From: Bacteroidota bacterium
Lineage (GTDB): Bacteria > Bacteroidota > Bacteroidia > Bacteroidales > Paludibacteraceae
Direction: 5' to 3'
Length of the DNA stretch: 58,397 bases
Assembly (NCBI GenBank): GCA_030706465.1
Contig: JAUZOM010000002.1
Location: 1 to 58,397 of the forward strand
This document shows positions 19,471 to 52,010 of this stretch, in pieces. Numbering within the stretch: the stretch's first letter is position 1; each line of letters opens with the position of its first letter. The notes beneath the pieces were generated by a model. It was given only the letters and a program-made list of their open reading frames with translations. It was not told the DNA's origin and made no database searches. The position numbers and the translations under genes were made by a program.

Positions 19471-19827
19471 AGAGAGTCTTCTTAGTCTGGACGTAGTCTT
19501 ATTTCAGTTTAGGTATAGAGGGGGTTCAGTTAGGGTTCAGTTAGGGTTCAGTTAGGGTTCGGATAGGGTTCGGATAGGGTTTGGATAGGGTTTGGATAGG
19601 TAGACCTAATTGAACCCCCTCGAAACCCTTTCTATACTCCCGTTGAACTGTCTCTATACCTAACATGAGCTCCGGCTGAAGTAAGACTGAACTAAGAGGA
19701 TACACCCCAGAGAGTAAGGATCGACTTCAACACCCTCCAACTTCGTCAGATGGCCGGGTTCCGGATCAATCATCGACAGAGATTTCCCGGGTGTATAAAA
19801 CAGAACTGGCAGCTATTCCACCTACTT
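19471..19827 (-). repeat. dispersed hairpin repeat, copy A (inverted, short form)
   Basis: About 357 bp of non-coding sequence that aligns, as reverse complement, with copies at 37057-37795 and 51336-52010. Shared blocks on the minus strand include GTAGGTGGAATAGCTG, ATTGATCCGGAACCCGGCCATC, GTTGAAGTCGATCCTTA, CTTCAGCCGGAGCTCATG, AGGTATAGAG and GAAATAAGACT. It lacks the roughly 50-bp block after CCTTA that the other two copies have (CCGGATTCCAAC to GGGGAGT), and the outer flanks. It starts only eight bases after the exonuclease stop. It has the same inverted tandem 11-mer core, with seven units on the long arm. Confidence 0.85.
19522..19598 (+). repeat. seven tandem 11-bp units in copy A
   Basis: Three GGGTTCAGTTA units, two GGGTTCGGATA and two GGGTTTGGATA follow each other without interruption. 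GGTAGACC (19599-19606) is the near-palindromic centre, and TAATTGAACCC then starts the short opposite arm of about two degenerate units. Confidence 0.95.
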
Positions 19828-19852
19828 AGTTTGGCCGAACCGGATTTATTAT

Positions 19853-19889
19853 AAAAAAACCTCTCCGGGCTTCACAGTCCAAAGAGGTT
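19853..19889 (-). terminator. terminator after tpx
   Basis: AACCTCT (19858-19864) pairs with AGAGGTT (19883-19889). On the minus strand the stem is followed by TTTTT. It lies about 70 bp downstream of the tpx stop codon. Confidence 0.6.
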
Positions 19890-19957
19890 ACCGAGTTACA
19901 TAAAAATTTATTTACTCACACTTATAAGCGCTTGCCCAAAGAGCAAGGCACCTATAG

Positions 19958-20449
19958 TCAAAATACAGTTATCTCATAATTTGGTTCATTCGTAATTTCA
20001 GCTACTTGTTCCGTATAAAGCACCTTCCCGTTTTCATCCAAAGCAACAACAGCCCGGGACATTAATCCCTTTAACGGGCCATCGGTTAACAGAACACCGT
20101 AATCGTTTGCAAAAGTATGGTAGCGAAAATCGGAAGCTGTGATGACATTGTCCAACCCCTCGGCTCCACAAAAACGGCTTTGTGCAAAGGGTAAATCTTT
20201 AGAGACACAAATGACCACTACATTTTCTTTTTCGGATACCCATTTATTGAACTTTCGGACAGACGTGGCACACGTTCCTGTGTCCAGGCTTGGAAAGATA
20301 TTCAGCAAAACACGCTTCCCTTTATAATCGCTTAAATGAAATTCCTGAAGACCAGCATTTACTAACGTAAAATCGGGTGCCAAAGACCCAATTTCGGGCA
20401 GTTTTCCGATTGTATGCACGTCATTCCCTTTAAATTTTACTGTTGCCAT
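19958..20449 (-). CDS. tpx: thiol peroxidase (atypical 2-Cys peroxiredoxin)
   Basis: A 163-residue protein co-linear with E. coli Tpx. The peroxidatic cysteine is C60 in [17 protein letters not shown], and the resolving cysteine is C94 in SRFCGAEGL; the [10 protein letters not shown] block is at 21-30. It reduces hydrogen and alkyl peroxides using thioredoxin. It is divergent from the lipoprotein gene at 20557, with 107 bp between them that contain a perfect CCGCATGCGG palindrome (20504-20513). Confidence 0.95.
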
Positions 20450-20503
20450 AAACGTTTTTTATTATTTTGTTTAAAAAAATATATGTTAATACGACAATAA
20501 CAC

Positions 20504-20530
20504 CCGCATGCGGTTTTTTGTTTATATTTG
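20504..20530 (+). promoter_or_regulatory. palindrome and -7 element before the metzincin-like lipoprotein gene
   Basis: CCGCATGCGG (20504-20513) is a perfect 10-bp palindrome directly upstream of TATATTTG (20523-20530), a TAnnTTTG match 26 bp before the ATG at 20557. The palindrome could be an operator shared with divergent tpx. No good -33 element was found. Confidence 0.35.
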
Positions 20531-20556
20531 CGTGTATTTATTTAAAATATTATTGA

Positions 20557-21753
20557 ATGGGGAGTACCAACTATTATCTAATTTTCTTTTATAGTATATT
20601 CTTCTTTTTAACATCGTGTAAAGATTCCAAAGAGTATCGAATTGACAGTTCATTTACTGATTATTTACAACGCTTTGAAAATGAAGGTTCGGCACGTGGC
20701 CGTACCTTTAACCCACAAGCTAACGGGTTGATTATCGAGTTTGGAAATCTAAGCAATGGAGATGCCGGTTTAACCCATTATGAGACTCCGATTCGGATAC
20801 AGATAGACAAGACATATTGGGACGCTATTTCGAAAACAAAAGGGGCAGATTGGATGAAAGAAGATTTGATTTTTCATGAACTCGGCCATGGATTATTGGG
20901 GCGTAAGCACTTAAATGCCACGCTTGAAAACGGAGACTGGAAATCAATCATGTGTGGAGGTACCAAGGTGGATAACCGTTCCTGGAACATCAATTACCGA
21001 GGTATAAGGCGCAGCTATTACCTGGATGAATTATTCGACGAAAGTACGCCTTCCCCCGGGTTTGCAAGTATGCAATTACCGGTTGATACAACAGGCTATG
21101 CAGAAAAACTCTTTTTATCGTTTGACACAGAAGCAAAGGTAAATGCCGGCTGGCCTATTACCGAAGATGCCAAACATAAAACCAGTATTGACAATGGACG
21201 ATTGTGCTTCCAATCGAAGATTGACTCTGTATTTATGGTACTTGCCAGTACATCACTCGATGTACTGAGCAATTTTTCATACCAGTTAACCCTGCAATAC
21301 CCTTCAGGCAACTCAACTGATCAATACGGTATTATTTTCGGTTCGGTCCCCTCGGGCAGTGATGTCGGCACCGACCCGGTAGAGTATTTTACTGTGAACA
21401 ACAATCAAAAGATGTACATGGGAAACCGCACCTGGTATAGTTTCTTTACTGAATTAACGATTCCTGCAATTGTGGCAGGTAGTAAAAACACCCTTAAAGT
21501 TGTGAAAATCGGCACTATGCTATACTATTTTATCAACGGCATCTACTGTTATTGTTCTGAGATAGAAGTAACAAGTTCGGGAAGTCAGTTCGGATTTCTG
21601 GTACCACCAAAAGGAACCGTGTGGGTAGATAATTTACAGATTTCAGTAAAAGGCAGCAGCCCTGCAATTTTCAGAATGCAACAAACTAAACAACTTGAAT
21701 TCAGCATACAAACGACTGACCAATTCAAACATAACCAGGTAAAGAACCAATAA
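20557..21753 (+). CDS. lipoprotein with metzincin-like zinc site and C-terminal lectin-like domain
   Basis: A 398-residue protein with a lipoprotein signal (FFLTS-C21). A zinc-protease-type motif H107-E-L-G-H111-GLLGRK-H118 is followed by SIMCGG (130-135), which resembles the Met-turn of metzincins. The third histidine is one residue further away than in the classical HExxHxxGxxH. About residues 165-370 form a beta-rich region with LFLSFDTEAKVNAGWPI, YQLTLQYPSG and GTVWVDNLQISVKG that resembles a concanavalin/LamG-type jelly roll. I infer a surface-anchored peptidase acting on proteins or glycoproteins. The family is not one I recognise, and activity is unproven. Confidence 0.6.
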   Translation: MGSTNYYLIFFYSIFFFLTSCKDSKEYRIDSSFTDYLQRFENEGSARGRTFNPQANGLIIEFGNLSNGDAGLTHYETPIRIQIDKTYWDAISKTKGADWMKEDLIFHELGHGLLGRKHLNATLENGDWKSIMCGGTKVDNRSWNINYRGIRRSYYLDELFDESTPSPGFASMQLPVDTTGYAEKLFLSFDTEAKVNAGWPITEDAKHKTSIDNGRLCFQSKIDSVFMVLASTSLDVLSNFSYQLTLQYPSGNSTDQYGIIFGSVPSGSDVGTDPVEYFTVNNNQKMYMGNRTWYSFFTELTIPAIVAGSKNTLKVVKIGTMLYYFINGIYCYCSEIEVTSSGSQFGFLVPPKGTVWVDNLQISVKGSSPAIFRMQQTKQLEFSIQTTDQFKHNQVKNQ

Positions 21754-21783
21754 ACAAACCGATTAACTATAAATTTAAAAAAC

Positions 21784-23466
21784 ATGTATAAATTTGTTAT
21801 ATATCAGACACTTCCACGTCTTTTTGGCAATTATAATTCAACCAACGTACATAATGGAAGCATTGAAGAAAACGGCTGTGGAAAGTTTAATCATTTTACG
21901 GCCAAAGCCCTCTCCGAAATAAAATCACTCGGTATAACCCATATCTGGTACACCGGTGTTATCGAACACGCCACCCAGACTGATTATACTACCTTCCGGA
22001 TTGAGAAAGATCATCCGGCTGTTGTAAAGGGTAAAGCTGGCTCTGCCTATGCTATCAAAGACTATTACGACGTTGACCCGGATCTTGCCGATCATGTTGA
22101 GGACCGGATGAAAGAATTTGAAGATCTGATAAAACGGACACACGAAGCCGGAATGAAAGTTATTATTGATTTTGTTCCAAATCATGTGGCCAGGCAATAT
22201 CACTCCGATGCCAAACCGGCAAATGTGGTTGATTTAGGAGAAAACGATCATTCCAATTGGGCATTCTCACCATTAAATAACTTTTACTACTTGCCAAACC
22301 AGGCTTTTAGCCCTCAGTTCGACATACAGGGATATAAAGAATTTCCTGCCAAAGTAACCGGGAATGACCAATTTACGGCTTATCCCACCAAAAATGACTG
22401 GTACGAAACTGTCAAATTGAATTACGGCGTTAACTACGTGGAAGGTCATCAAAAACAATTTGATCCGATTCCGGATACCTGGTTCAAAATGCGGGATATA
22501 CTCCTTTTTTGGGCCTCAAAGCAGATAGATGGCTTCAGGTGCGATATGGCCGAAATGGTTCCGGTCGAATTCTGGGGATGGGCTATATCCCAGGTAAAGG
22601 CCCAGTACCCGGCTATTATCTTTATTGCTGAAGTTTATCATCCTGCAGAATACCGTAATTACATATGTAACGGGAAATTTGATTATTTATATGATAAGGT
22701 GGGTATGTACGAAATGCTTCGCAATATAACAAGCCGGGACTATCCGGCCCGGGAAATTACGAATTCGTGGCAATCGTTAGGAGGCATTGAGAGCCAAATG
22801 CTGAATTTTATGGAGAACCATGACGAACAACGGATTGGTTCCGGTTTCTTCTGCGGAAACGGCCTGTATGCCCAGACGGCAATGATAGTTGCGGCAACTC
22901 TGACACAGGCTCCTGTTATGATCTATTTTGGCCAGGAGCTGGGGGAACAGGGGATGGACAGCGAAGGTTTCAGCGGCATTGACGGCCGGACCAGTATTTT
23001 TGATTATTGGGGAGTAAAATCGATCCAAGACTGGGCAAATGGCGGAAAATTTGATGGTAAAAATTTATCGCCCGAACAGAAAGAACTGCGTGGCTTCTAC
23101 CAAAAGCTATTGAATATAACCCTCACTGAAAAAGCGATCACTGATGGGCTCATGTACGACCTGGAATTTGCTAATTTTGACAATCCAAGATTCAACACAC
23201 ACAGGCAATATGCGTATTTCCGAAAATATAAAGATGAAATTTTGTTATTTGTGTTGAACTTCGACGATAAATATCTGGATACCGAAGTTCGTTTGCCCTA
23301 CGAAGTATTTCAATTTTTTAAATTAAAAGAAGGACAAAATTATAAGGTTACCAACTTATTGCAGGAAACGGATAAATTTCCATTGTTTACTCTGAGTTCC
23401 AACGAACCATTTAGGGCCTACATGCCTCCCTGGAAGGGATTGATTTTAAAACTAACTCGAATGTAA
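21784..23466 (+). CDS. cytoplasmic GH13 (alpha-amylase family) glycoside hydrolase
   Basis: A 560-residue GH13 protein without a signal peptide. Conserved region I is DFVPNH (129-134), region II is GFRCDMAEM with nucleophile D254, region III is IFIAEVYHP with acid/base E283 and region IV is FMENHDEQR with D347, so the catalytic triad is complete. A C-terminal beta domain follows, from about residue 455. The absence of a signal peptide suggests action on imported or stored alpha-glucan or a disaccharide. The insertion after HATQTDY with a KGKAGSAYAIKDYYDVDPDLADH block is typical of bacterial alpha-amylases. It starts 30 bp after the lipoprotein gene and is probably co-transcribed with it; why these two are linked is unclear. 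Confidence 0.88.
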   Translation: MYKFVIYQTLPRLFGNYNSTNVHNGSIEENGCGKFNHFTAKALSEIKSLGITHIWYTGVIEHATQTDYTTFRIEKDHPAVVKGKAGSAYAIKDYYDVDPDLADHVEDRMKEFEDLIKRTHEAGMKVIIDFVPNHVARQYHSDAKPANVVDLGENDHSNWAFSPLNNFYYLPNQAFSPQFDIQGYKEFPAKVTGNDQFTAYPTKNDWYETVKLNYGVNYVEGHQKQFDPIPDTWFKMRDILLFWASKQIDGFRCDMAEMVPVEFWGWAISQVKAQYPAIIFIAEVYHPAEYRNYICNGKFDYLYDKVGMYEMLRNITSRDYPAREITNSWQSLGGIESQMLNFMENHDEQRIGSGFFCGNGLYAQTAMIVAATLTQAPVMIYFGQELGEQGMDSEGFSGIDGRTSIFDYWGVKSIQDWANGGKFDGKNLSPEQKELRGFYQKLLNITLTEKAITDGLMYDLEFANFDNPRFNTHRQYAYFRKYKDEILLFVLNFDDKYLDTEVRLPYEVFQFFKLKEGQNYKVTNLLQETDKFPLFTLSSNEPFRAYMPPWKGLILKLTRM

Positions 23467-23560
23467 AAAATCATAAAACATCTTGAAAATCAGCTTAAAT
23501 TTTGAACGAATCCTGAAGCTTTAGCATTATATGGAGTAAAACCTATTTAAAGAAGACATT

Positions 23561-24037
23561 ATGAGATCACACTTTATTCAGGCGGCTTTTGGAGCTTTAT
23601 TTTTTATCGTATCGTGCTCTTCATTGAAAACGACACCTGAAACCATAGAAGAACTTACTCAAAAGATTCAAGCAAAAGATTATACGATTTCAGTCAGGTA
23701 TGCTAATCCTTTGAGAGGCAAGCAAATTTACCTGAGTAGCGAATATGATTTACGAATAAAGAATGATTCGGCTTTTGCTTATCTTCCTTATTTTGGAGTT
23801 GCCTATTCGGCACCTTATGGCGGTGGGGAAGGAGGAATTAAATTTGCGGAACCAATAATTGGATATTCAATGAAACCTAATAAGAAATCCGATGGGTGGG
23901 ATATTCATTTTAGAATAAATGCAAAAGAGTCCGATTACGAAATATCCATGAATATCTTCCAGAACGGCAGTACTATTTTCACTGTCAGTTCATTTAACCG
24001 GGATATAATAACATTTAGGGGTGAGGTTAAGAAATAG
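23561..24037 (+). CDS. DUF4251 lipoprotein
   Basis: A 158-residue protein with a lipoprotein signal (LFFIVSC at about residue 19). The body matches the DUF4251 pattern common in Bacteroidetes: SVRYANPLRGKQIYLSSEYDLRIKNDSAFAYLPYFGVAYSAPYGGGEGGIKF, then a YSMKPNKKSDGWDIHF block. The function is unknown; it is presumably anchored in the outer membrane facing the periplasm. It is 94 bp after the GH13 gene. Confidence 0.85.
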   Translation: MRSHFIQAAFGALFFIVSCSSLKTTPETIEELTQKIQAKDYTISVRYANPLRGKQIYLSSEYDLRIKNDSAFAYLPYFGVAYSAPYGGGEGGIKFAEPIIGYSMKPNKKSDGWDIHFRINAKESDYEISMNIFQNGSTIFTVSSFNRDIITFRGEVKK

Positions 24038-24431
24038 TTTCTATGACTCAACATCACTGATCAGAAAAATTTGTAATAAGCCTGCTTGCTATCCAACCTT
24101 CAATTAATTTCTTCCTTTAACTCCCGAATCAACTTACAGTTTAATGTAAAATACTGGCATATTGTATATAATATATACATAATAGCGATTATGATTTTAA
24201 TGTTTAACTTTTTCAGACTAATTGCTTTCATACTGAATAAACAGGAGGAAAAGCAGACAAAATAATTAAAGAAATAATTCCTTAATCTTTTTGTCAATTG
24301 AAAAAAAAAACCGATATTTACAGTCGTTTTCAGGAGATTTCTATCTGGTTTTATGTGCTTGAAAATGAATTTATTTTATGTTGTAGAACTTGACAGCCAA
24401 CAAGAATTTTAAAGAAAATATCAAATAGATT
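24038..24431. other. AT-rich intergenic stretch before the carboxyltransferase gene
   Basis: No convincing gene. It holds a GTATATAATATATAC near-palindrome (24165-24179) and a run of ten adenines near 24301. No clear promoter pair or riboswitch was recognised. Confidence 0.35.
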
Positions 24432-26189
24432 ATGAAAGAAATTAAATTCAGTCTTGTTTACCGCGATATGTGGCAAGCGTCTGGCAAATATGTGCCTCGT
24501 AAAGACCAATTAGCAAAAATTGCTCCCGTACTTATTGAAATGGGATGTTTTGCCCGTGTTGAAACCAATGGTGGAGCCTCAGAACAAGTAAACCTGTTGT
24601 ATGGCGAGAATCCGAACGATGCTGTTCGTACATTTACCAAACCATTTAATGATGCCGGTATTCAGACTCACATGCTGGACCGCGGATTGAACGGTTTACG
24701 TATGAACCCGGTTCCGGCTGATGTACGTGAATTGATGTATAAGGTAAAAAAAGCACAAGGCGTTGATATAACCCGTATTTTCTGCGGATTAAATGATGTC
24801 CGCAACATTATACCTTCCATTCATTATGCCAAGGCTGCAGGAATGATTGCCCAGGCTACCATGTGTATCACCTATTCTGAAATTCACACAGTAGAATACT
24901 ATGTGAATATGTCGGAGAAACTGATTGAAGCAGGAGCAGACGAAATCTGCCTGAAAGATATGGCCGGTATCGGCCGTCCTGAAATGTTGGGTAAAATAGT
25001 AAAAGCAATTAAGACGGCTCATCCTGATACAATTATTCAATATCACGGCCATTCTGGTCCCGGTTTCTCAGTTGCTTCCATGCTTGAAGTGGCTAAAGCC
25101 GGCGTAGATTATCTGGATGTTGCCATGGAACCGCTTTCGTGGGGAATGGTTCATCCGGATGTGATTACTATTCAAGCCATGCTAAAAGATGCCGGTTTTA
25201 AGGTTCCAGAAATTAATATGACCGCCTATATGGAAGCACGCCGCCTGACACAAAGTTTCATAGACGACTTCTTGGGATACTTTATTGACGAGCGCAACAA
25301 ATTCATGACCTCTTTACTTATCGGATGCGGACTTCCGGGTGGTATGATGGGTTCACTCATGGCTGACCTGAAAGGTGTTCATGCCGGTATTAACTCGTAC
25401 CTGAAAGGTGCAAACAAAAAAGAGCTCAGCACAGACGAATTGCTGGTTATGTTGTTCGACGAAGTAAAATATATCTGGCCTAAATTGGGTAATCCGCCAT
25501 TAGTAACCCCATTCAGCCAATATGTAAAGAATATCGCTTTGATGAACGTTATGTTCCTGGTTAAAGGTCAACCGAGATGGAGCATGATTGATAAAAACAG
25601 CTGGGATATGATTTTAGGTAAAGCTGGAAAATTACCAGGAAAACTTGATCCTGAAATCATTGCATTGGCCGAAAAAAACAAATACGTTTTCTTCGAGGGA
25701 AATCCACAGGACAATTATCCAAATGAATTGCCGAGATTTATTGAAGAAATGAAAGCAAATGCCTGGGATAGGGGCAAAGATGATGAAGAATTGTTCGAAT
25801 TCGCTATGCACGAAAAACAATATCGTGATTTCAAATCGGGAGAAGCTAAAAAACGCTTTGAAGGAGAACTTGAAGCTGCCATCAAAGCAAAATATGCAAC
25901 AAGCACTATTGAATTACCCGATTTACGCGCATTAAAATACCCGAATGCCGAACCAGTGGTTTCTAATGCAACCGGTCGAGTAATCTGGGAACTTGACTTT
26001 AACGAAGTTTCCGTAGAACCTGTTCATGGAAAAGAAGTGAAAGAATATGAAACTCTTTGCACCATTCAAACAAATTATGGATTGGAACATATCGGAAGTT
26101 TCTGCGACGGACGAATTGTAGGCGTCGAAAAGAAGCAGGGTGAAGTTGTACGCAAGGGCGAGGTATTAGCTTATATTGAAAAGAAGTAA
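24432..26189 (+). CDS. PycB/OadA-type carboxyltransferase with a biotinyl-like domain lacking the biotin lysine
   Basis: A 585-residue protein. Residues 1-300 form an HMGL-like TIM barrel as in pyruvate carboxylase and oxaloacetate decarboxylase alpha: YRDMWQAS (cf. LRDAHQSL), FARVETNGGAS, the carbamylated-lysine segment CLKDMAGIG, and the metal histidines in QYHGHSG. A PYC/OADA-type middle domain (LIGCGLPGGMMGSL) and a C-terminal barrel-sandwich domain follow. In the last 60 residues, where EAMKM should be, the sequence reads TIQTNYGLEHIGSF, so no biotinylatable lysine is present. The carboxyl group may therefore come from a separate carrier, perhaps the one at 10474-11022. Pyruvate/oxaloacetate is the likely substrate. 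Confidence 0.8.
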   Translation: MKEIKFSLVYRDMWQASGKYVPRKDQLAKIAPVLIEMGCFARVETNGGASEQVNLLYGENPNDAVRTFTKPFNDAGIQTHMLDRGLNGLRMNPVPADVRELMYKVKKAQGVDITRIFCGLNDVRNIIPSIHYAKAAGMIAQATMCITYSEIHTVEYYVNMSEKLIEAGADEICLKDMAGIGRPEMLGKIVKAIKTAHPDTIIQYHGHSGPGFSVASMLEVAKAGVDYLDVAMEPLSWGMVHPDVITIQAMLKDAGFKVPEINMTAYMEARRLTQSFIDDFLGYFIDERNKFMTSLLIGCGLPGGMMGSLMADLKGVHAGINSYLKGANKKELSTDELLVMLFDEVKYIWPKLGNPPLVTPFSQYVKNIALMNVMFLVKGQPRWSMIDKNSWDMILGKAGKLPGKLDPEIIALAEKNKYVFFEGNPQDNYPNELPRFIEEMKANAWDRGKDDEELFEFAMHEKQYRDFKSGEAKKRFEGELEAAIKAKYATSTIELPDLRALKYPNAEPVVSNATGRVIWELDFNEVSVEPVHGKEVKEYETLCTIQTNYGLEHIGSFCDGRIVGVEKKQGEVVRKGEVLAYIEKK

Positions 26190-26226
26190 AATTCACACAC
26201 ACTTCATAAGCTTTTAAAACTATTTA

Positions 26227-26262
26227 AATAGAGACGTTGATTACAGCGTCTCTATTTTTTTA
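26227..26262 (+). terminator. terminator after the carboxyltransferase gene
   Basis: AATAGAGACG (26227-26236) pairs perfectly with CGTCTCTATT (26247-26256) around a 10-base loop, followed by six T. It lies 38 bp after the stop codon. Confidence 0.85.
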
Positions 26263-26323
26263 TACTCTATTTGTGGAAAATAAAAAGATTCTATTAAATA
26301 GCGGAAAAACCAATTGAAATCGC

Positions 26324-26331
26324 TATTTTTG
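26324..26331 (+). promoter_or_regulatory. possible -7 element of the permease gene
   Basis: TATTTTTG matches TAnnTTTG, 82 bp before the permease ATG. It is downstream of the terminator at 26227-26262. The -33 partner is weak. Confidence 0.4.
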
Positions 26332-26413
26332 CAACAAAAACATACCATTTATAAAGTAGAATGGGATTTATTCTATCAAACTGGCTTTTTAGCCTACCTG
26401 AAATTAATTATTT

Positions 26414-27883: not shown

Positions 27884-27890
27884 AAATCTA

Positions 27891-37056: not shown

Positions 37057-37795
37057 CGGCGATACTTGATTTGAAAATCTCTCTTGGAATCTTCTCCGAT
37101 AAGTCTAATTTCACAGAATTACCAGCCTCTGAAAAAGTGTTCTGTCCTTTCTATAAAATACGATAATATATTATGTAGTGGAATAACCGAATGATCTATT
37201 TTAAGCACCTGAACAATCTCTGTTGGCTATTGATCCGGCACCCGGCCATCTCACAAAGTTGAAGGGGTGTTGAAGTCGATCCTTACCCGGATTCCAACCC
37301 CTTGACGGATGTTGTTTCCTTTCTGGTCCTTCCTCGCCGGGGAGTCTCCTCTTACTTCAGCCGGGGTTCATGTTAGGTGTAGAGGTATTTCAACAGGAGT
37401 ATAGATAGGGTTCGGATAGGGTTCGGTTAGGTCTACCTATCCGAACCCTATCTGAACCCTAACTGAACCCTATCTGAACCCCTTCTATACCTAAACTAAA
37501 ATAAGACTGGAATAAGACTGCGTAAAAGACCGAAATAAGGTTGCCCCCCAGATTGAGAAAATTCCTTCTTTTGAAAAAGAAAACCTTATTTTTCTTTTTC
37601 TTTTCCCTTCGTAGTCTCTCAAAAGAATACTGAAAGCCCCAATATAAAAGTAACTTAATAAAATGCTGATATTATGTAAATTAAAATTTAGTTACATAAG
37701 AGAGAAAATTGAACACCCTACGAATCTTCCTTTATTACCGTCTATGAAAAAGTAAAAATAACAGAGGGCAATATCTATTTCCAATTACTTATGAC
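37057..37795 (+). repeat. dispersed hairpin repeat, copy B (long form)
   Basis: About 740 bp, no gene. It aligns along its length with copy C (51336-52010) and, over the core, with inverted copy A (19471-19827). Shared landmarks in order are CGGCGATACTTGAT, GTGGAATAAC, ACAATCTCTGTTG, ATTGATCCGGCACCCGG, GGATTCCAACCCCTTGACGG, CTTACTTCAGCCGGGG, the 11-mer hairpin, CTATACCTAAACTAAAATAAGA, CACCCTACGAATCTT and CTATTTCCAATTACTTAT. It lies in a 2.3-kb gap between the DUF3298 operon and the T9SS protein gene. Confidence 0.85.
37408..37481 (+). repeat. inverted tandem 11-bp array in copy B
   Basis: The left arm has GGGTTCGGATA and GGGTTCGGTTA (37408-37429), the centre is GGTCTACC (37430-37437), and the right arm has four complement-strand units TATCCGAACCC, TATCTGAACCC, TAACTGAACCC and TATCTGAACCC (37438-37481). 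The 2 + 4 units can fold back on each other. Confidence 0.95.
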
Positions 37796-38835
37796 CACCA
37801 CTTATCGCAAATAAACTGAGTAATAGTCAAAAGGTTCTACTGGTCATATTATGAAAGCAAGTCTGAATTACAATGAAAAAGCAGATTAGCTATGCAGGTT
37901 GTTTAGTTAAGGATTTTGATTGAAAGAACCAATACTCCACCTAAACGACCTTGATTCATGAAACAAAAATTAATTTCAATAAAAGAAGGAGTGTATTATG
38001 ATCTTATTTTTTTGTTTTTATAATTCCACTTCCACGGAGCATACAGTACTTCTGTTTTAGGTATAAAGTGGAATCGGGGACTTCAGAGCGCGTTGGCAGA
38101 TGGCTCAGAGAGGCATGTCCCTCTGAATCCTCAATAAAGTCTCTCAATACGGAGAAAACATTACATCGTTGTTTAGATGAAGCCGTAAGCTGAATTAAAA
38201 AAATACTTGCAGAGAACCCGGCAAAAAAGAGTTTACGACTCGTTCAAAATAGAAGCCCCATGTGGTATTTGCCCGAAAGAGACTGCTGGCAATTAAAATT
38301 CAATTTCATTGACTTTTAATTGTGATATTATAGATCTTCTGCAACATATCCTGCATCCCCCCAAAAATAAGTCCATGACTGGATCCACTTGAAACGCTAT
38401 TTGTGCATATGTTATGAACCATCAATCGAAGATAAACAATAACTTTTAAATTCATTATTTACATTTTAATTAACACATAAATGCAAATACAAGTTAATTA
38501 AATTCCATTATTATTACTACCTTTGTCGCTTGATTAAAAAAAATACTACATTGCGTAGTAAAAAATACACAACTATTATACGATAACCTGCTTAGTCGTG
38601 ATTTAAGCACTTGGGGTTAAATAATGTAGTATAATTTTCATCGTTACACTTCCGTGAAGGAGGATGTCTAAAATTGGCTAGAATTCAAAATATGGAAATG
38701 AAGATAAATTCACACAAATATTTGAATTTCTATTATTTAGTATATTAATAAAAATTCTTATTCGCGAAGATTTGCGTCATTTACATTCAAAAAAAAATTC
38801 CTGACAGCCTCTTTTGGGAGAGATCGGAATTTAAA
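37796..38835. other. non-coding leader-side region before the T9SS protein gene
   Basis: About 1 kb without a supported gene. A hairpin of AATTCCACTT/AAGTGGAATC lies near 38022-38075, and a TACTACattgcGTAGTA palindrome near 38551-38567 follows the -7-like element at 38518. A GAAGGAGG motif before a five-codon frame near 38664 looks like a ribosome binding site, but such sites are rarely used in this phylum. Confidence 0.4.
38518..38525 (+). promoter_or_regulatory. possible -7 element far upstream of the T9SS protein gene
   Basis: TACCTTTG matches TAnnTTTG. If used, the leader to the ATG at 39092 would be about 560 bases long and would contain the TACTACattgcGTAGTA hairpin. No -33 partner is convincing. 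Confidence 0.3.
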
Positions 38836-39087
38836 ATGCTACAATATATTTTTCCTACTACTTATATAAAACAGTCCAACCTGTTTTATAATCGGACAGT
38901 GGTTAATGCCGTTGCGAAACAAATAAATAGACAAATGAGACGAAGTCGAAATTGGACTACATTATTTGTGCAAACGGTATTATTATACTTATACATTTTT
39001 TTACAGTTAAAGCCTTTCATATCATTGGTTTTGTGGTATATTATACTTAAAATATTAACAAAAAGCTATACATACAAATCTTTATAA
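38836..39087 (+). CDS. possible 83-residue membrane peptide, doubtful
   Basis: An open frame ending four bases before the T9SS gene start. It has a hydrophobic C-terminal half (TLFVQTVLLYLYIF) and a basic middle. No family resemblance is recognised. It could be a real small gene coupled to the next, or chance in AT-rich sequence. Confidence 0.25.
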   Translation: MLQYIFPTTYIKQSNLFYNRTVVNAVAKQINRQMRRSRNWTTLFVQTVLLYLYIFLQLKPFISLVLWYIILKILTKSYTYKSL

Positions 39088-39091
39088 AAAA

Positions 39092-44945: not shown

Positions 44946-44962
44946 CTGTCAACTTTAAATCA

Positions 44963-44998: not shown

Positions 44999-45021
44999 TC
45001 TGTTTATTTTCTCTATTTTTG
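44991..45021 (+). promoter_or_regulatory. Bacteroidetes-type promoter of the GSCFA gene
   Basis: TTTG (44991-44994), 19 bp, TATTTTTG (45014-45021): a perfect match to the phylum's consensus. The ATG at 45055 follows 33 bp later, which argues against the alternative start at 44992. Confidence 0.65.
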
Positions 45022-45054
45022 TTTGAGTGTATAAGATCTAAACGATTCAATGTT

Positions 45055-46008
45055 ATGTTTCAAACCCAGGTTGAAATTCCGATTTCCTCGCTAAAAATCG
45101 GCTACGAAGATAATATAATGTCATTGGGCTCTTGCTTTGCTGATAATATGGGCAAAAAAATGTCTACTGCTTATTTTATGTCGGATGTTAATCCTTTTGG
45201 GGCATTATATAATCCAATTTCGATTAGCAATAGCCTTGAATTATTACTTCAAAAGAAATTATTTACCGAAGAAGATCTTTTTGAAAATCGTTCCTTATGG
45301 CAAAGCTTCTCTCACAGCACGTTATTTTCAGATTCAACAAAGGAAGACTGTTTGAAAAGGATAAATTCCCGTTTAGAGTTTTCCAATAGGTTTTTGCGAC
45401 AAACGAATGTTCTGATTATTACCTTTGGAACAGCCTGGGTATTCCAAAAGAGGGGAGATGGTAAAGTAGTCTCTAATTGTCACAAATTGCCTGCAAATGA
45501 ATTTATTAGAAGACGATTGACTATTGATGAAATCGTTACTGAATATAAAATACTTATTCAGAAATTAAAGTCACAAATCCCCGGTCTAAGTATCATTTTT
45601 AGCGTCAGCCCCATTCGTCATTGGAAAGATGGAGCACATGAAAACAATGTTAGTAAAAGTATTTTGCTTATTGCTATCGATGAACTGATCAAACAGTTTT
45701 CTCAGGTTTATTACTTCCCGGCTTATGAAATACAACTTGATGAATTGCGCGATTACCGGTTTTATGCCTCCGATATGCTACACCCATCTGATGTAGCAGT
45801 AGATTATATCTGGAAGCGTTTCTCCGATACCTATTTTACAGAACTTACCGGACAAATATATAGAAAGCTGGAACAACTGGCAACGGATTTAGCGCACCGT
45901 CCGATACATCCCGGTTCTGATGAATACCGTACTTTTCTGAATAAAATAAATGAGCGAAAAGACAAAATTATATCAGCATATCCATTCTTATCCAATCGGA
46001 TTAAATAA
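45055..46008 (+). CDS. GSCFA domain protein
   Basis: A 317-residue protein started at MFQTQVEIP (45055), because the promoter lies inside the longer reading from 44992. The name-giving motif is LGSCFADNMG (near residue 23), followed by NPFGALYNPISI, FGTAWVFQKR and SVSPIRHWKDGAHENN, then YFPAYEIQLDELRDYRFYASDMLHPSDVAVDYIW. The pattern is SGNH/GDSL-hydrolase-like: the GSCF serine, and D and H in the MLHPSDVAV block, make an esterase or acyltransferase plausible. The function of the family is unknown. Confidence 0.9.
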   Translation: MFQTQVEIPISSLKIGYEDNIMSLGSCFADNMGKKMSTAYFMSDVNPFGALYNPISISNSLELLLQKKLFTEEDLFENRSLWQSFSHSTLFSDSTKEDCLKRINSRLEFSNRFLRQTNVLIITFGTAWVFQKRGDGKVVSNCHKLPANEFIRRRLTIDEIVTEYKILIQKLKSQIPGLSIIFSVSPIRHWKDGAHENNVSKSILLIAIDELIKQFSQVYYFPAYEIQLDELRDYRFYASDMLHPSDVAVDYIWKRFSDTYFTELTGQIYRKLEQLATDLAHRPIHPGSDEYRTFLNKINERKDKIISAYPFLSNRIK

Positions 46009-46048
46009 TAAAAACCTCTCTGCTTAAAGCAGAGAGGTTTTTATTATT
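46004..46048. terminator. bidirectional terminator between GSCFA and the uronate transporter genes
   Basis: AATAATAAAAACCTCTCTGC (46004-46023) pairs exactly with its complement ending at 46048, with T-runs in both directions. The two genes converge here. Confidence 0.9.
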
Positions 46049-46071
46049 TATCTATCTTACTAATCAATCTA

Positions 46072-47502
46072 TTATAAATCGGTAATGGGTTTGTGTTTCG
46101 GAACTAATACTTTCATAACCACCCATGCTATTAAATAAGCGGAAGCACAAATTCCAAACATAATTCCATAGGCCCTCTGGACATGACACTGAACCAATGC
46201 TTCTGCAGACTTTCCTACGAGATGTTGAGCTGCTACTGCAGTTTCCCCTATTCCTTTAAAATGGTCGGTTAACCTACCGGCAATCTGTTGTACCAAAACT
46301 CCGCCAATTCCTCCTGCTAGTCCGCCAATTCCGGTTACTGAACCAACCGTTTTTTTTGGAAACATATCGGAAACGGTTGTAAATAAATTAGCTGACCAGG
46401 CCTGATGGGCAGCAGCACCGATACAAATTACAATTAAAGCTAATACAGAAGCGTTATTTCCAAAATGTTGTACATTCCCAAAATAAGGAGTTAGCACTAA
46501 GGCAAGCGGTAGTATGGCAATCAGCAGCATAGCGGTCATACGTGCTTTATAAACTTCCATACCTTTATTCATGAAAAACATAGGGAATCCACCCCCTGAA
46601 ACGCTACCAATAATAGCTACCCCGTAAACAACAAACAAGGGAATCATTATAGCATGGCCTTCCATATTAAATTGTTGTTTCATAAAATCGGGCAACCAGA
46701 ACAATAAAAACCACCAAATTCCATCCGTCATAAACTTACCAAAGACGAATGCCCAGGTTTGTTTGTAAGCAAACAACCGATACCAGGGAACTTTGGTAGC
46801 TATTTCTTCATCGGAAGAAACTATAGCTGCTTCATCAGCATGAATATAATCGTATTCAGCTTTCGAAAGGTGCTTTTGTTTAGCTGGTGTTTCATATAAC
46901 CAGATCCAGAAAATCAACCACAGTAACCCAACAGCTCCGGTCAGTATAAATGCCATTTGCCACCCCTTAATAGCGCCATTGAACCAAACAGTATAAGCAA
47001 TAGCAGGTACAGCCAGCGAAGCTATCATGGCGCCAACATTGGCTCCCGAATTAAAAATACCGGTTGCCAAAGCCCTCTCTTTTTTAGGAAACCAATTGGC
47101 TATCGTTTTTATTGATGCCGGGAAGTTACCGGCTTCCCCAATTCCAAACAATGATCGCACAGCCGCATGAACCATTGCAACACTCCCGGCAAATGCATTT
47201 AAAATGCCAAATACAGACCAAATGATGAGCGATAAAGCCAGTCCCAATTTTGTGCCTATTTTGTCGATAACAAATCCCGCAAAGAAAGTCATTAAGGCAT
47301 AGAAACCTGTAAACAATGAAGTCACCAATGCAAAATCCGTATTAGTCCAGGCTAAGCCTCCTTCAGTCAGTGGTCTTGAAAACAGCGGCTTCAGGTAACC
47401 TATTACCTGGCGATCCATGTAGTTAATGGTAGTTGCAAAGAAAAGTAAAGCGACGATTGTCCAGCGATAATTACCGATTTTCTCTGCTGTCGATTTATTC
47501 AT
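46072..47502 (-). CDS. MFS transporter, hexuronate (ExuT-like) family
   Basis: A 476-residue 12-helix major facilitator of the anion:cation symporter branch. TM1 is WTIVALLFFATTINYMDRQVIGYLKP, as in ExuT/GudP. The family's inter-helix segment DKIGTKLGLAL and FGIGEAGNFPASIKTIANWFPKKERALATGIFNSG follow. An extra block (HLVGKSAEALVQCH) precedes the last helix. It should import galacturonate and glucuronate with protons. It is the last gene of the minus-strand uronate unit, 31 bp after the aldolase gene. Confidence 0.87.
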   Translation of the reverse strand: MNKSTAEKIGNYRWTIVALLFFATTINYMDRQVIGYLKPLFSRPLTEGGLAWTNTDFALVTSLFTGFYALMTFFAGFVIDKIGTKLGLALSLIIWSVFGILNAFAGSVAMVHAAVRSLFGIGEAGNFPASIKTIANWFPKKERALATGIFNSGANVGAMIASLAVPAIAYTVWFNGAIKGWQMAFILTGAVGLLWLIFWIWLYETPAKQKHLSKAEYDYIHADEAAIVSSDEEIATKVPWYRLFAYKQTWAFVFGKFMTDGIWWFLLFWLPDFMKQQFNMEGHAIMIPLFVVYGVAIIGSVSGGGFPMFFMNKGMEVYKARMTAMLLIAILPLALVLTPYFGNVQHFGNNASVLALIVICIGAAAHQAWSANLFTTVSDMFPKKTVGSVTGIGGLAGGIGGVLVQQIAGRLTDHFKGIGETAVAAQHLVGKSAEALVQCHVQRAYGIMFGICASAYLIAWVVMKVLVPKHKPITDL

Positions 47503-47533
47503 ATAAAGCTATTTAAGGCAGTTTGTTCTAGAA

Positions 47534-48199
47534 TTAGTTGCGTATTTTTTTGATGATTGCCAATGCATCACTGCATAATCTGGTGATTCCGGTCCAATCT
47601 TCTGCCTTAATCATGCTGGCAGGAAAAAGGTTAGAGCCCATTCCAACACAGGTAGCACCGGCGTCAAACCAAGTTTTTAAGTTTGCTTCTTCTGGTTTTA
47701 CACCACCGGTTACCATGATATTCGACCAGGGCATAGGTGCTTTCAGACCCTTTACAAATCCGGCACCTAATACATCACCCGGAAATACTTTGCATACATC
47801 GCAGCCCATTTCCTGTGCAAAACCAACTTCAGAGACCGAACCACAACCGGGTGCATAAGGAACTAACCGGCGATTGGCCACTTTTGCCACATCGGGATTG
47901 AATAAGGGACCTACAATAAAATTAGCTCCCAATTGGATATACAAAGCTGCCGTTGGAGCATCTACAATTGATCCAATGCCCAGAATCAGTTCAGGACACT
48001 GATTGGCAGCAAATTTCACCAGTTCTCCAAAGACTTCATGGGCAAATTCACCCCGGTTTGTAAATTCGAATGCCCGTACGCCACCATCAAAACAGGCTTT
48101 TAGGACTTTCTTGGAGACTTCAATATCGCTGTTATAAAATACCGGAACCATACCGGTTTCCTTCATCGCTGTGAGAACTTGAATTTTATTGAATTTCAT
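47534..48199 (-). CDS. eda: KDPG/KHG aldolase
   Basis: A 221-residue class I aldolase. The general acid/base glutamate is in [41 protein letters not shown] follows, and the Schiff-base lysine is in [15 protein letters not shown]. It cleaves 2-keto-3-deoxy-6-phosphogluconate into pyruvate and glyceraldehyde 3-phosphate, the last step of the uronate route. It is 138 bp after the KDG kinase gene and 31 bp before the transporter gene on the same strand. Confidence 0.93.
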
Positions 48200-48337
48200 A
48201 TTATTTTATGAATGACCCGAAGGGTAGTAAAAATGTTAGTATTATTTTGTTAATATCGTATTAAAAATAAAATATCTGTTAGGGGTAATTTAATAGTCGG
48301 GGCTAATTTAATCCCCTTTTAGAGGGCTAAGGATTCT

Positions 48338-49381
48338 TTATCTGGAAACCCGGCCGCTTCCATCACCACCCATCAGTGCTTCAACTTCGGACACCGTTGC
48401 CAGATTATAATCCCCGTAAATAGTATGTTTCAGGCATGAAGCAGCCACGGCAAATTCCAGTGCTTTTTGATCGTTGTTCGTATAAGTTAATAGACCGTAT
48501 ATTAAACCACCCATAAAAGAGTCACCGCCGCCTACACGATCGACAATATGGGTAATATCATAACGCTTTGACTGGTATAATAGACCTTCACTGTATAAAA
48601 CTCCACCCCAGGTATTGTGATTGGCATTGATGGAGCCCCGTAATGTAATGATCACTTTTTTGGCCCGGGGAAATTTTGCCATCATCTGGGTACATACCGA
48701 TTCAAATTCCACCGCATCCACTTCACCTCCCGTACGAGAAACATCAAAACCTTCCGGCTTTATTCCAAATACTTTCTCCGCATCTTCTTCATTTCCCAGG
48801 ATTATATCGCAACCTGCCACCAATTCCGGCATTACTTCGGATGCGGATTTGCCATACTTCCATAGATTTTTACGATAATTCAGATCGGTCGAAACAGTAA
48901 CTCCCATCTCATTGGCAATTCGGATTGCTTCCAGGCAGGCATCAGCCGCTCCCTGTGAGAGAGCCGGTGTAATACCGGTCCAATGGAACCAATCAGCTTC
49001 CTTAAATACTTCGCGCCAGTTAACCATGCCCGGTTTTATATCGGCAATCGAAGAATTTGCACGATCGTACACGACTTTACTGGCACGGGCAACAGCACCT
49101 GTTTCAAGAAAATAAATACCAACACGCTCACCACCGCGTAAAATCTCCTTCGTGCCAACACCGTATTTACGTAAATTCATAATGCATGAATCGGCAATAT
49201 CGTTTTTCGGCAACCGGGTTACAAACTCTGTTTCCATACCGTAGTTTGACAGCGATACTGCTACATTGGCTTCACCGCCACCAAATGTAGCATTAAATTG
49301 TGTTGACTGACTGAAGCGTTCGTATCCGGGCGTGGCCAAACGAAGCATTATCTCTCCAAAAGTTACAATCTTTTTACTCAT
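48338..49381 (-). CDS. kdgK: 2-keto-3-deoxygluconate kinase (PfkB family)
   Basis: A 347-residue ribokinase-fold kinase started at MSKKIVTFGEIMLRLA (49381); the longer reading from 49432 includes the promoter and the palindrome. NATFGGGEANVAVSLSNYG is the sugar-binding N-terminal signature, and VDRVGGGDSFMGGLIYGLL contains the catalytic aspartate. It phosphorylates KDG to KDPG, feeding the aldolase encoded next. Its upstream region holds a perfect TTGGTCGACCAA palindrome and a -7 element, so it can be transcribed independently of uxaC. Confidence 0.9.
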   Translation of the reverse strand: MSKKIVTFGEIMLRLATPGYERFSQSTQFNATFGGGEANVAVSLSNYGMETEFVTRLPKNDIADSCIMNLRKYGVGTKEILRGGERVGIYFLETGAVARASKVVYDRANSSIADIKPGMVNWREVFKEADWFHWTGITPALSQGAADACLEAIRIANEMGVTVSTDLNYRKNLWKYGKSASEVMPELVAGCDIILGNEEDAEKVFGIKPEGFDVSRTGGEVDAVEFESVCTQMMAKFPRAKKVIITLRGSINANHNTWGGVLYSEGLLYQSKRYDITHIVDRVGGGDSFMGGLIYGLLTYTNNDQKALEFAVAASCLKHTIYGDYNLATVSEVEALMGGDGSGRVSR

Positions 49382-49420
49382 CGTTTTTTTATTTTGTACT
49401 AAGTATTTTTGTCCGGCTAA

Positions 49421-49437
49421 TTGGTCGACCAAAAGTA
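49421..49437 (-). promoter_or_regulatory. promoter element and TTGGTCGACCAA operator before kdgK
   Basis: On the minus strand TACTTTTG (49430-49437, TAnnTTTG match) runs directly into TTGGTCGACCAA (49421-49432), a perfect 12-bp palindrome. Overlap of the palindrome with the -7 element is where a repressor would act. The form TTGGT-NN-ACCAA is the type recognised by FadR-subfamily GntR regulators such as ExuR/UxuR, not the CCGTGTYCG form seen elsewhere in this locus. Confidence 0.55.
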
Positions 49438-49528
49438 CATCATTTTTTTTAATTTAAAATGAAATGTTATTTAATTTTTATCCTGATCATCGAATTAAGA
49501 ACAAACTTGTATGTAAAATGAATATATA

Positions 49529-50932
49529 TTAAAATTTAAAATATCTTTTTGCATTATTATAACTGATGTCTTCTACCATTCTTCCCAAAAACGCTATCTC
49601 CTGGTTAGGTAATAATCCGTTCTCAACATCATTGCCAATCAAATTACAGAGTGTACGCCTGAAGTATTCGTGACGGGGGTAGGAGAGGAAGCTACGTGAG
49701 TCTGTCAGCATCCCCACAAAACGGCTCAATAATCCCAACAGGGAAAGTGAATTCATCTGTTTTTCCATCCCATCTTTCTGATCCATGAACCACCAACCCG
49801 AACCAAATTGAATTTTCCCGGCTACTGTACCATCCTGAAAATTACCAATCATGGTTGCAATCATCTCGTTATCAGAAGGATTTAAATTATACAGGATTGT
49901 TTTGGTTAGTTTGTTTTGTGAATCCAATCTGTTTAAGAATTTTGATAAGGCTTTAGCGGTATTAAATGTTCCAATGGAATCAAATCCTGTATCGGGACCC
50001 AGTTGATTGAATAAGCGGGTATTGTTGTTCCGGATCGTTCCATAATGAAATTGCTGGGTCCATCCTTTTTCCCAATCCATTTCTGCGAAAATAACCATCA
50101 TAGCCGATTTGAACTTCAAGACTTCGCCGTGAGTCAATTCATGTCCGCCATATACTTTATTGAATATTGCTTTGATTTCCAATTCCGTATAATCTTCCGC
50201 GTAGAATTCTTCAATGCCATGGTCGGAAAGTTTACAACCAACTTCGACAAAGAAATCCTGACGTATGCGTAAAGCGCTTATCATGTCGTCAAAAGAAGAA
50301 ATACTCACTCCGGCAACTTTAGAAAGCTGTTCTACGTATTTCCGGTAATCAGCCGCATTTTCCACTGCCATCGCTTTGTCTGGCCGCCAGGTAGGCAACA
50401 TTTTCACCTCAAACCCATCCTGTCTGGTCTTGATATGGTGTTCGAGTGAGTCGATAGGATCATCGGTTGTACAAACCACCTCTACGTTATAGTGGCGCAT
50501 GATATTGCGGGCAGAATATTCGGGAGTCTGCAACTTAGCATTACATTCTTCATATATTTCACGGGCAGTGGCAGGTGACAAAAGCTTTTCCACCCCAAAT
50601 CCTGTCTTCAATTCCAAATGGGTCCAGTGATAAAGTGGATTCCGCATGGTATAGGGAACTGTTTCTGCCCATTTTTCAAATTTTTCCCAATCTGAGGCAT
50701 TTCCTGTACAATATTTTTCGTCGATGCCATTAGTACGCATGGCACGCCATTTATAATGATCTCCTCCCAGCCATATTTCTGTCAAGGTCTTAAATTGGTG
50801 ATCTGTAGCTACCAGTGAAGGTATCAGGTGACAATGGTAGTCAATGACAGGCATTTTTGATGCATGTTCGTGATAGAGTTTCCTGGCCGTTTCGGTTTGT
50901 AAAAGAAAATTTTCATCTAAGAAGTTTTTCAT
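49529..50932 (-). CDS. uxaC: uronate isomerase
   Basis: A 467-residue amidohydrolase-superfamily protein, close to the usual length (470 in E. coli). MPVIDYHCHLIPS carries the HxH metal ligands, and TEIWLGGDHYKWRAMRTNG, NVEVVCTTDDPIDSLEHH and LTDSRSFLSYPRHEYFRR are characteristic UxaC blocks. It converts galacturonate to tagaturonate and glucuronate to fructuronate. It is divergent from the LacI gene across 1.6 kb that contains two operator regions and the repeat copy C. It is 147 bp before kdgK on the same strand. Confidence 0.95.
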   Translation of the reverse strand: MKNFLDENFLLQTETARKLYHEHASKMPVIDYHCHLIPSLVATDHQFKTLTEIWLGGDHYKWRAMRTNGIDEKYCTGNASDWEKFEKWAETVPYTMRNPLYHWTHLELKTGFGVEKLLSPATAREIYEECNAKLQTPEYSARNIMRHYNVEVVCTTDDPIDSLEHHIKTRQDGFEVKMLPTWRPDKAMAVENAADYRKYVEQLSKVAGVSISSFDDMISALRIRQDFFVEVGCKLSDHGIEEFYAEDYTELEIKAIFNKVYGGHELTHGEVLKFKSAMMVIFAEMDWEKGWTQQFHYGTIRNNNTRLFNQLGPDTGFDSIGTFNTAKALSKFLNRLDSQNKLTKTILYNLNPSDNEMIATMIGNFQDGTVAGKIQFGSGWWFMDQKDGMEKQMNSLSLLGLLSRFVGMLTDSRSFLSYPRHEYFRRTLCNLIGNDVENGLLPNQEIAFLGRMVEDISYNNAKRYFKF

Positions 50933-51165
50933 AATACGTCGTTTCTAATTTTGTGAGTTATTTATTTAACATTATTACTTCCGGTATAATAAAAAATCAG
51001 GCTCTATTTTCAGTAAAAAACAGTCATAAGTAGACGTTTCTTATTTAAAATATTGGTTTAGGATGATGCGTTTTGTAGAATTTCATTACATCTAAACGAA
51101 TTTTAAAATAATAACTAAATGTAAACTAGCATAATATATAGTTATTTCGGTTGAAAAACAGTTTC

Positions 51166-51181
51166 CCGTGTTCGCACACGA
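51166..51181. promoter_or_regulatory. operator-like site 1 (uxaC promoter)
   Basis: CCGTGTTCGCACACGA, an imperfect palindrome (CGTGT-N4-ACACG with CG inside). It shares the form of sites 2 and 3 at the lacI promoter, suggesting binding by the LacI-family protein encoded at 52542. It covers the predicted uxaC transcription start. Confidence 0.6.
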
Positions 51182-51209
51182 AGATACAAATAATTTTATA
51201 TTTATGAAA
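51179..51209 (-). promoter_or_regulatory. probable uxaC promoter
   Basis: On the minus strand TTTC (51206-51209), 19 bp, TATCTTCG (51179-51186): one mismatch in each element of the consensus. The -7 element abuts operator site 1. It implies a leader of about 240 bases before uxaC. Confidence 0.4.
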
Positions 51210-51335
51210 CATATCCTGCTTTTTCGAAATCAATTTACATGAATCTTACCGATGGCCGGATTAGGGCCTGAGTAAATAAAACCTCTCATCTAAATTGAAA
51301 AGGGCAGGAGACAATTGCTCCGACTCACCGTATAA

Positions 51336-52010
51336 CGGCGATACTTGATTGTTAACTTTCTTCTCATTTCCTGCTTGATTCACCCTGCATTCGCTATCGA
51401 TTTTAGGTATTGATACGATTTTACTTGGTTTACTTTATCCTATCATATAGATAAGCAGGTGGAATAACTGCAAGTCTCATTTTATACATCCAGACAATCT
51501 CTGTTGAGTATTGATCCGGAACCCGGTCATCGGACGAAGTTGGAGTGATGTTGAAGTCAATCCTTAACCGGATTCCAACTTGTTGACGGATGTTGTTTCC
51601 TTTCCGGTCCTTCCTCCCCGGGGAGTATCCTCTTACTTCAGTCTCACTTCAGCCGGGGCTCATATTAGGTATAGAGACATTTTTAAGGGAGTATAGAGAG
51701 AGTTTCGAGGGGGTTCAGTTAGGTTTACCTATCCGAACCCTATCCGAACCCTATCCGAACCCTAACTGAACCCTAACTGAACCCTAACTGAACCCTATCT
51801 ATACCTAAACTAAAATAAGATTGAAATAAGAGACTGGACTCAGACTGAGTAAAGACTAAGAAGACTCCCTCTTTTGGAAAAGAAAACCTAATTTTTCTCT
51901 TACCTTCCCACTGGTAGAAAATTTGACACCCTACGAATCTTTCCTCATTTCCTTCCGGTAAGAAGTAAAAATAACAGCAGGCACTGTATATTTCCAATTA
52001 CTTATCACAA
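51336..52010 (+). repeat. dispersed hairpin repeat, copy C (long form)
   Basis: About 675 bp, no supported gene. It is co-linear with copy B from CGGCGATACTTGATT through GTGGAATAACTGC, ATTGATCCGGAACCCGG, the GGATTCCAACTTGTTGACGG block, CTTCAGCCGGGGCTCAT, the 11-mer hairpin and CACCCTACGAATC to TATTTCCAATTACTTATCAC. The strongest part is a roughly 200-bp hairpin (51630-51832): CTCTTACTTCAG on the left faces TGAAATAAGAG on the right. It lies between operator site 1 and sites 2-3 of the uronate locus. Confidence 0.85.
51730..51795 (+). repeat. six tandem 11-bp units in copy C
   Basis: Three TATCCGAACCC units followed by three TAACTGAACCC units. The facing left arm, GAGTTTCGAGG then GGGTTCAGTTA, and the centre GGTTTACC (51722-51729) precede them. 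Confidence 0.95.

Follow-up and report, generated by a model that had tools for sequence, protein, structure and literature searches.

What is an intergenic sequence that occurs three times in the 58,397-nucleotide stretch analyzed here (the window), each time with an imperfect hairpin whose arms are tandem 11-bp units? The original prediction for this part of a Paludibacter-type genome offered a non-autonomous mobile element, a structured RNA gene, or a chromosome-organizing site. We put at about 90% the probability that the three copies belong to a family of non-autonomous miniature inverted-repeat transposable elements (MITEs) whose ends are of the type found in the IS630 group of insertion sequences (ISs) and which insert at TA. 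An IS630-group (Tc1/mariner-like) transposase would recognize the ends, about 35 bp each, in trans, and would insert the element at TA, duplicating that dinucleotide. The first of the three proposals is thus the one supported, by terminal inverted repeats, TA duplication at reconstructed empty sites, an IS630-type remnant in this genome with very similar ends, and a patchy, lineage-restricted spread. Below, G000 is the genome of the window, other G labels are related genomes, and C labels are contigs.

The three copies were expected to represent a large genomic family, and they do. About 70 distinct copies were located in G000 (4.34 Mb in 337 contigs). A pattern for the hairpin loop, which gives up to two matches per copy, was found 94 times on the forward and 91 times on the reverse strand (2 and 1 for the reversed control), and BLAST of the whole genome gave at least 64 matches, with 40 of 145 candidates scored. 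Among the matches listed, at least 74 loci remained after de-duplication and 72 after two were removed by hand; these are 46 copies of the reported kind (A1), 22 of a second kind (A2), and 4 in neither class. By eye, a few pairs of these loci at contig ends seem to be a single copy that the assembly holds twice, hence the figure of about 70. Contigs C14, C36, C43, C54, C57, C179, and C315 each have a copy, or a piece of one, in roughly their first 150 bases. With copies at contig starts, the A1/A2 family is probably a cause of breaks in the assembly.

When 29 oriented copies were aligned, sharp borders emerged, TAAGTAGGTGGAATAACTGAATGTCCTGTTTTATA on the left and TAAAAATAACAGAGGGCACTGTATATTTCCAATTACTTA on the right, that form an imperfect inverted repeat ending in TA. 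This terminal repeat is about 35 bp long and starts TAAGTA (TA-AGTAGGTGGAATAA... at one end and ...TTTCCAATTACT-TA at the other), and between its two halves A1 consists, in order, of a 5′ domain, the hairpin module, and a 3′ third. Both ends were located in 21 of the 46 A1 copies, one or both being not found in the remainder; the two-ended copies are 460–730 bp long, 17 of them 485–621 bp. Median pairwise identity, computed for 37 copies over the 5′ domain and 5′ arm, is 83%, with the best pair at 98% and the lowest at 74%.

Evidence for insertion at TA comes from empty sites. For 13 A1 copies with TA at both ends (by a stricter match), the two flanks were fused at a single TA, and the resulting junctions were searched for in the 48 genomes of the genus; four junctions were followed up and 15 chosen target stretches aligned, so that the following figures hold among the matches listed. 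The copy on C286 sits within a sequence that reads as a MITE with other content (type C), and five of five uninterrupted relatives continue across the join, ungapped and with one TA, matching 8–16 of 9–19 bases on the left (up to the host MITE's own end) and 49–52 of 56–60 on the right. Copy 3 of the window lies inside a palindromic repeat, and its five targets (four in G005, one in G008) all cross the join with one TA, matching 26–28 of 29–33 bases on the right and 7–15 of 9–20 on the left. For the copy on C79 there are four of four targets (left 38–41 of 51–58, right 9 of 9 or 17 of 20), with TA at the join in two and TG in two; the C39 junction has a single target (1/1), a weak match with GA at the join. 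A fifth joined site (L013), whose matches to a simple CATAATGCATAATTC-like repeat pass the join by at most 9 bases, was left uncounted. Because the joined flanks of three copies correspond to uninterrupted repeats with a single TA, insertion evidently duplicates the TA. A sister element of type B, as read, is likewise nested in one of type D (C65 of G005) with TA on both sides. Terminal inverted repeats, no transposase coding in the three window copies, empty sites, and a multi-copy, lineage-restricted occurrence are together the features of a MITE.

The link to the IS630 group comes from the ends. Contig C31 of G000 contains part of a transposase (Pfam DDE_3, 30.6 bits where the cut-off is 28.6, E 3.6e-7) adjoining an A1 fragment, and the outer end of this remnant, TAAGTAATGGTCAAAATAGAATGTCGTATTTT, ranks within the top 2.6e-6 among 784,520 background positions when scored with a matrix built from 78 element ends (32 A1 left, 24 A1 right, 22 others). 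Each transposase end was taken as the best position in a 60–100-bp stretch, which flatters the scores a little. On this scale the transposase loci of G072 (both ends), G165 (right end), and G016 reach the top 5e-5 or better, and the left end in G069 is weaker (7.5e-5). Ends in common with an IS630-group element were thus found for C31, G072, G016, and the right end of G165, where a 205-residue frame with a full DDE_3 domain is preceded by a 134-aa frame without a Pfam match. From these shared ends we infer that an IS630-group transposase moved the element. DDE_3 matches number five in G000: a near-full one on C89, cut by the contig start; one on C305, split in two; and fragments on C46 and C31. 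Since the copies are about 83% alike and no intact transposase with these ends was found, the family appears to be largely inactive in this genome.

The same ends raise the concern, voiced in the original prediction, that the copies are decayed ends of a known IS. They are indeed of the IS630 group, but the three window copies hold no open reading frame (ORF) of 100 aa or more. More broadly, instead of an amplified short element, the copies could represent decayed end remnants of an ordinary IS or group II intron, and the resemblance to IS630-type ends, as well as the A1 fragment that abuts an IS630 remnant, would fit that origin. Yet dozens of copies have one common non-coding interior with uniform borders and length, and only one (C31) of the five DDE_3 matches genome-wide lies beside an A1 fragment, so we regard decay from a larger element as extremely unlikely. 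A group II intron was also rejected, as no intron family of Rfam matched the window.

Several observations weigh against mobilization of a MITE by an IS630-group transposase. First, nine of the 13 joined sites have no counted empty site among the matches listed, the empty sites are other repeats in other species rather than orthologous sites, and one side is short in each good junction (the left in C286 and copy 3, the right in C79). BLAST of the 150-bp flanks of 21 copies against the retrieved DNA gave many other repeats and, by eye, no empty site. Second, the transposase evidence is uneven: the left end in G165 matches poorly (6.5e-4), as do the right end in G069 and the ends in G150 and G001 (z 2.2–2.7). 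A DDE_3 search of G000 found no intact IS630 transposase with TAAGTA-type ends, and the same search of G005 gave no match. Such ends were not seen at the C89 or C305 transposases, the best matches at C305 being weak and not placed as ends. Incompleteness of the assembly could hide an intact partner transposase. Third, A2 carries the hairpin plan of A1 on another backbone, without recognizable TAAGTA ends (16 of 22 copies aligned), and a clear left end is present in only 3 of 13 G005 copies examined and in none of three from G008.

The A2 copies and the G005 and G008 copies without these ends indicate that the hairpin is not tied to one vehicle. Either an old common element has diverged everywhere but in its hairpin, or the module was captured on more than one occasion. 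The second alternative can be taken further: the inverted 11-bp minisatellite might be a transferable module, captured by at least two unrelated dispersed elements (A1 and A2), whose phased units, by binding a host or transposase protein, have let it persist in three species. We consider this unlikely, though if true, the inverted 11-bp module would help whichever vehicle carries it. The 3′ third of A1 in turn resembles the interior of type B: 1 of 300 shuffles was as good for two of three B copies, and 57 of 300 for the third, so that kinship between the two is suggestive only.

How the ends and the hairpin are distributed bears on these possibilities. In 300 genomes of the family, the hairpin pattern was found in G000 (85 and 80 matches), G005 (45 and 45), and G008 (10 and 11), with controls at zero, and G296 has a single match with two mismatches. 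It is missing from the other 296, including 45 of the 47 other genus members (it is present in two of the 47). G013 has one 25-base match to the element (E 5e-4) and none by the hairpin pattern. The end pattern occurs in 32 of the 48 genus genomes, several with only one or two matches; the reversed control occurred once in seven genomes. The vehicle, as defined by its ends, is widespread in the genus, and the hairpin content is patchy. Two matches farther afield, in Xanthovirga (L057) and Phaeodactylibacter (L062), lie by eye inside apparent coding sequence and were taken as chance. A phage or plasmid origin was rejected as well, as copy 3 has no match in phages or plasmids and the loop pattern has no exact match in viral contigs.

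Some sequences in related genomes pair similar ends with other interiors. Eight loci in G005 (L094, L095, L097, L103, L104, L106, L107, and L109) have unrelated palindromic contents, of the GGGAATAAGGG, GCGGAT, and CACATAG types, with like terminal repeats, and L095 (148 bp) has both terminal repeats. Nine identical ends, TAAGTAATTGGCAAAATATAATGTA, at nine places in G021 point to an IS or MITE of this group that was active recently. With one set of ends and several palindromic contents, sister elements can be compared for the hairpin's role.

The hairpin itself has a strict register. The 3′ arm measures 34 + 11k bp in all 37 aligned A1 copies (34, 45, 56, 67, 78, 89, or 100 bp), the 5′ arm is 59 bp long in 34 copies (two others have 48 bp and one has 58 bp), and the segment that precedes it takes up 41 bp in 28 copies and 30 bp in 9. 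Thirteen kinds of 11-mer fill the 172 unit slots. Gaps in the 5′ domain, unlike the 11-bp steps of the arms, are mostly single columns. We picture the internal hairpin as an inverted minisatellite that changes by whole 11-bp steps, most simply via slippage during replication and unequal exchange. In types C and D the motif spacing is about 10 bp, not strictly 11, and therefore we claim no common 11-bp rule.

Could the element instead be a cis-acting RNA or the gene of a structured non-coding RNA, with the hairpin as its functional fold? Compared with its shuffles, copy 2 folds much more stably (z −9.6), copy 3 moderately so (−3.2 and −3.0 for the two strands), and copy 1 only weakly so (−1.9); the giant hairpin that had been described is thus fully true of copy 2 but moderate in copy 3 and weak in copy 1. 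For the inner 14-pair helix, compared across 37 copies, the share of paired cells is 86.7% against 85.7% (13 of 500 shuffles as high), the covariation score is 0.056 against 0.045 (20 of 500 as high), both exceed all slid versions, and T-A has changed together to G-C in four copies. The 20 loop-proximal columns are also the best conserved, with 94.5% mean pairwise identity versus 78–84% outside the loop region. However, related copies can beat shuffles without any structure. Pairs changed on both sides number 2 of 14, against a shuffle mean of 2.3 (420 of 500 as high), and pairing is poorly kept, with two loop-proximal positions of the inner helix mispaired in 24 and 25 of the 37 copies. The RNAalifold consensus is −3.75 kcal/mol with 0 of 17 pairs compensated, a stretch of the 5′ domain of copy 3 folds like shuffles (z −0.2), and no Rfam family matches the window at the gathering threshold. 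There is also no excess of G-U: G-T/A-C mismatches number 207/285 in 46 A1 copies, 70/103 in 18 A2 copies, 35/48 in 13 G005 copies, and 8/16 in 3 G008 copies, counts that stem from repeated units and are not independent, and in which an A-C excess would fit G-U pairs on the opposite strand. We therefore think an RNA function very unlikely, and the proposal of a structured RNA gene is not supported by these results.

Gene context bears on this alternative and on another. Genes were called by a simple ORF rule, and 47 of the 68 assigned copies have a called gene on both sides: 27 lie in divergent, 18 in co-directional, and 2 in convergent gaps. The background of intergenic TA sites, taken over 451 kb (the window and 20 regions chosen to lie away from known copies), is 24% divergent, 66% co-directional, and 10% convergent. 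Divergent gaps are thus enriched (p = 1e-6), co-directional gaps depleted (p = 1.4e-4), and convergent gaps not different (p = 0.32). Orientation relative to the co-directional genes is 9:9, which argues against a leader RNA and against an RNA function more generally. Similarly, a REP-like 3′-end element or terminator was rejected, as only 2 of 47 copies are convergent and no terminator-like site was found in 51400–52060. Within the window, copy 1 is in a convergent gap and copies 2 and 3 are in divergent gaps.

The enrichment between divergent genes would suit a site that acts at the DNA level, through helically phased protein-binding units or a cruciform, in nucleoid organization or as an insulator between divergent promoters. 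The strict 11-bp register (34 + 11k in 37 of 37 3′ arms, 59 or 48 bp in 36 of 37 5′ arms) and the nearly invariant loop region point the same way. Whole-unit steps, however, are predicted by tandem slippage alone, the number of units varies freely, and any insertion that disturbs operons would be expected to avoid co-directional gaps. Absence of the hairpin pattern from 296 of the 300 family genomes, 45 of the 47 other genus members among them, speaks against a chromosome-organizing site as a conserved function. A DNA-level site of this kind thus seems quite improbable. For an IS630-mobilized MITE, the placement in divergent gaps would best be read as survival where no transcript is interrupted.

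Features of the window are collected in Table 1. All three reported copies are present, but their borders needed correcting. The starts given originally for copies 2 and 3, 37057 and 51336, arose because a 15-bp word, CGGCGATACTTGATT, is common to both places; it lies about 115 bp outside the element and has no further occurrence in the DNA searched. Copy 1 retains an intact left end, with its left terminal repeat at 19803–19828, and, with copy 3 as reference, lacks about 140 bp at the right, including the right end, in addition to having an internal deletion. Copy 2 has, by eye, an additional stretch of roughly 80–100 bp in its 3′ third. The decayed A2 relative that adjoins copy 2, which the original prediction had missed, has a degraded array, and TAAGTA ends were not seen in it. 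Another TAAGTAGTAGGAAAAATATATTG end, at 38839–38864 on the minus strand, lies in the 2.3-kb intergenic gap shared with copy 2 and possibly belongs to a further MITE. Elsewhere in G000, the right flank of one copy (L162, on C39) contains a roughly 117-bp repeat, unrelated to the element, that is found 69–92% alike at many other places, mostly in G000.

Table 1. Element copies and their parts in the window; arrays are 11-bp tandem arrays called by Tandem Repeats Finder
Feature	Position	Strand	Remarks
Copy 1, A1 element, right end lost	about 19472..19828	-	adjoins stop codon of ORF 18900-19463
Copy 1 hairpin module	19515..19660	-	array 19522-19600
Copy 2, A1 element, 621 bp	37171..37791	+	left end degraded (TTATGTAGTGGAATAACC)
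Copy 2 hairpin module, best-paired of the three	37373..37495	+	array 37436-37481
Decayed A2 copy	about 37840..38320	+	5′ hairpin arm GGTATAAAGTGGAATCGG as in A1, other backbone; by eye against A2 copies
Copy 3, A1 element, 553 bp, both ends	51452..52004	+	left TAAGCAGGTGGAATAAC..., right ...TATTTCCAATTACTTA
Copy 3 left terminal inverted repeat, flanking TA included	51452..51487	+	from consensus of copies
Copy 3 hairpin module (5′ arm, loop, 3′ arm of 11-bp units)	51665..51810	+	array 51728-51799
Copy 3 right terminal inverted repeat, flanking TA included	51969..52004	-	from consensus of copies

The family is mobile DNA, a "parasite of a parasite", and a new family of a known kind rather than a new RNA gene. 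In a Paludibacter-type genome, a large source of intergenic DNA is thereby identified, together with a likely reason why contigs break there. Among the bacterial MITEs with minisatellites, the family is a further example, one of IS630 type.

In the literature searched for the repeat strings and for similar elements, we found no published description of this family. Among eukaryotic elements, Foldback/Galileo of Drosophila have long, internally repetitive terminal inverted repeats; long, internally repetitive inverted repeats are found here too, but the inverted array is internal. The closest published analogue found is BrickBuilt of Porphyromonas gingivalis, a member of the Bacteroidales. BrickBuilt is an intergenic MITE whose interior holds a 23-nt minisatellite, whose predicted stem-loops are long, and whose ends are IS-like (PMC4596501). 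Like it, the present family is an intergenic MITE with a variable repeat number and no Rfam match. BrickBuilt, however, has 23-nt direct repeats, ends like those of ISPg1 and ISPg9, and target duplications of differing length (PMC4596501), whereas here the 11-bp units form an inverted pair of arrays, the ends are of IS630 type, and TA is duplicated. With 11-bp units and TAAGTA... ends, as opposed to 23-nt direct repeats and ends like GAGACCTTTGCA, the family does not belong to BrickBuilt as so described. Another IS-derived case is the Cardinium MITE (PMC9769881). TAACTGA heptamers, for which Paludibacter propionicigenes is named with two sets (PMC4679880), recall the present 11-mer, which contains the string TAACTGA; kinship was rejected, as the heptamers are portrayed there as 7-bp direct repeats and not as an 11-bp inverted array.

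Other short elements resemble the family as well. Correia/NEMIS and ERIC elements, compared by description, are likewise (nearly) non-coding, have TA ends, and form a long stem-loop in the transcript, and effects on mRNA processing have been proposed for them (PMC2229807). They are shorter, however, Correia/NEMIS at about 107–155 bp and ERIC at 127 bp (PMC2229807), than the mostly 485–621 bp found here. RUP of Streptococcus pneumoniae has been tied to IS630-Spn1 through its ends and TA targets, and, like the present family, it is a short, intergenic, non-coding element, in about 100 copies, with ends like those of the IS630 group and insertion at TA (PMC2229807). RUP differs in being 107 bp long and highly conserved (PMC2229807), whereas the element here is about five times longer, about 83% conserved, and equipped with an 11-bp minisatellite hairpin. 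By analogy, then, the family appears to work like RUP and to be built like BrickBuilt, with a sequence of its own, an 11-bp inverted array of its own, and IS630-type ends.

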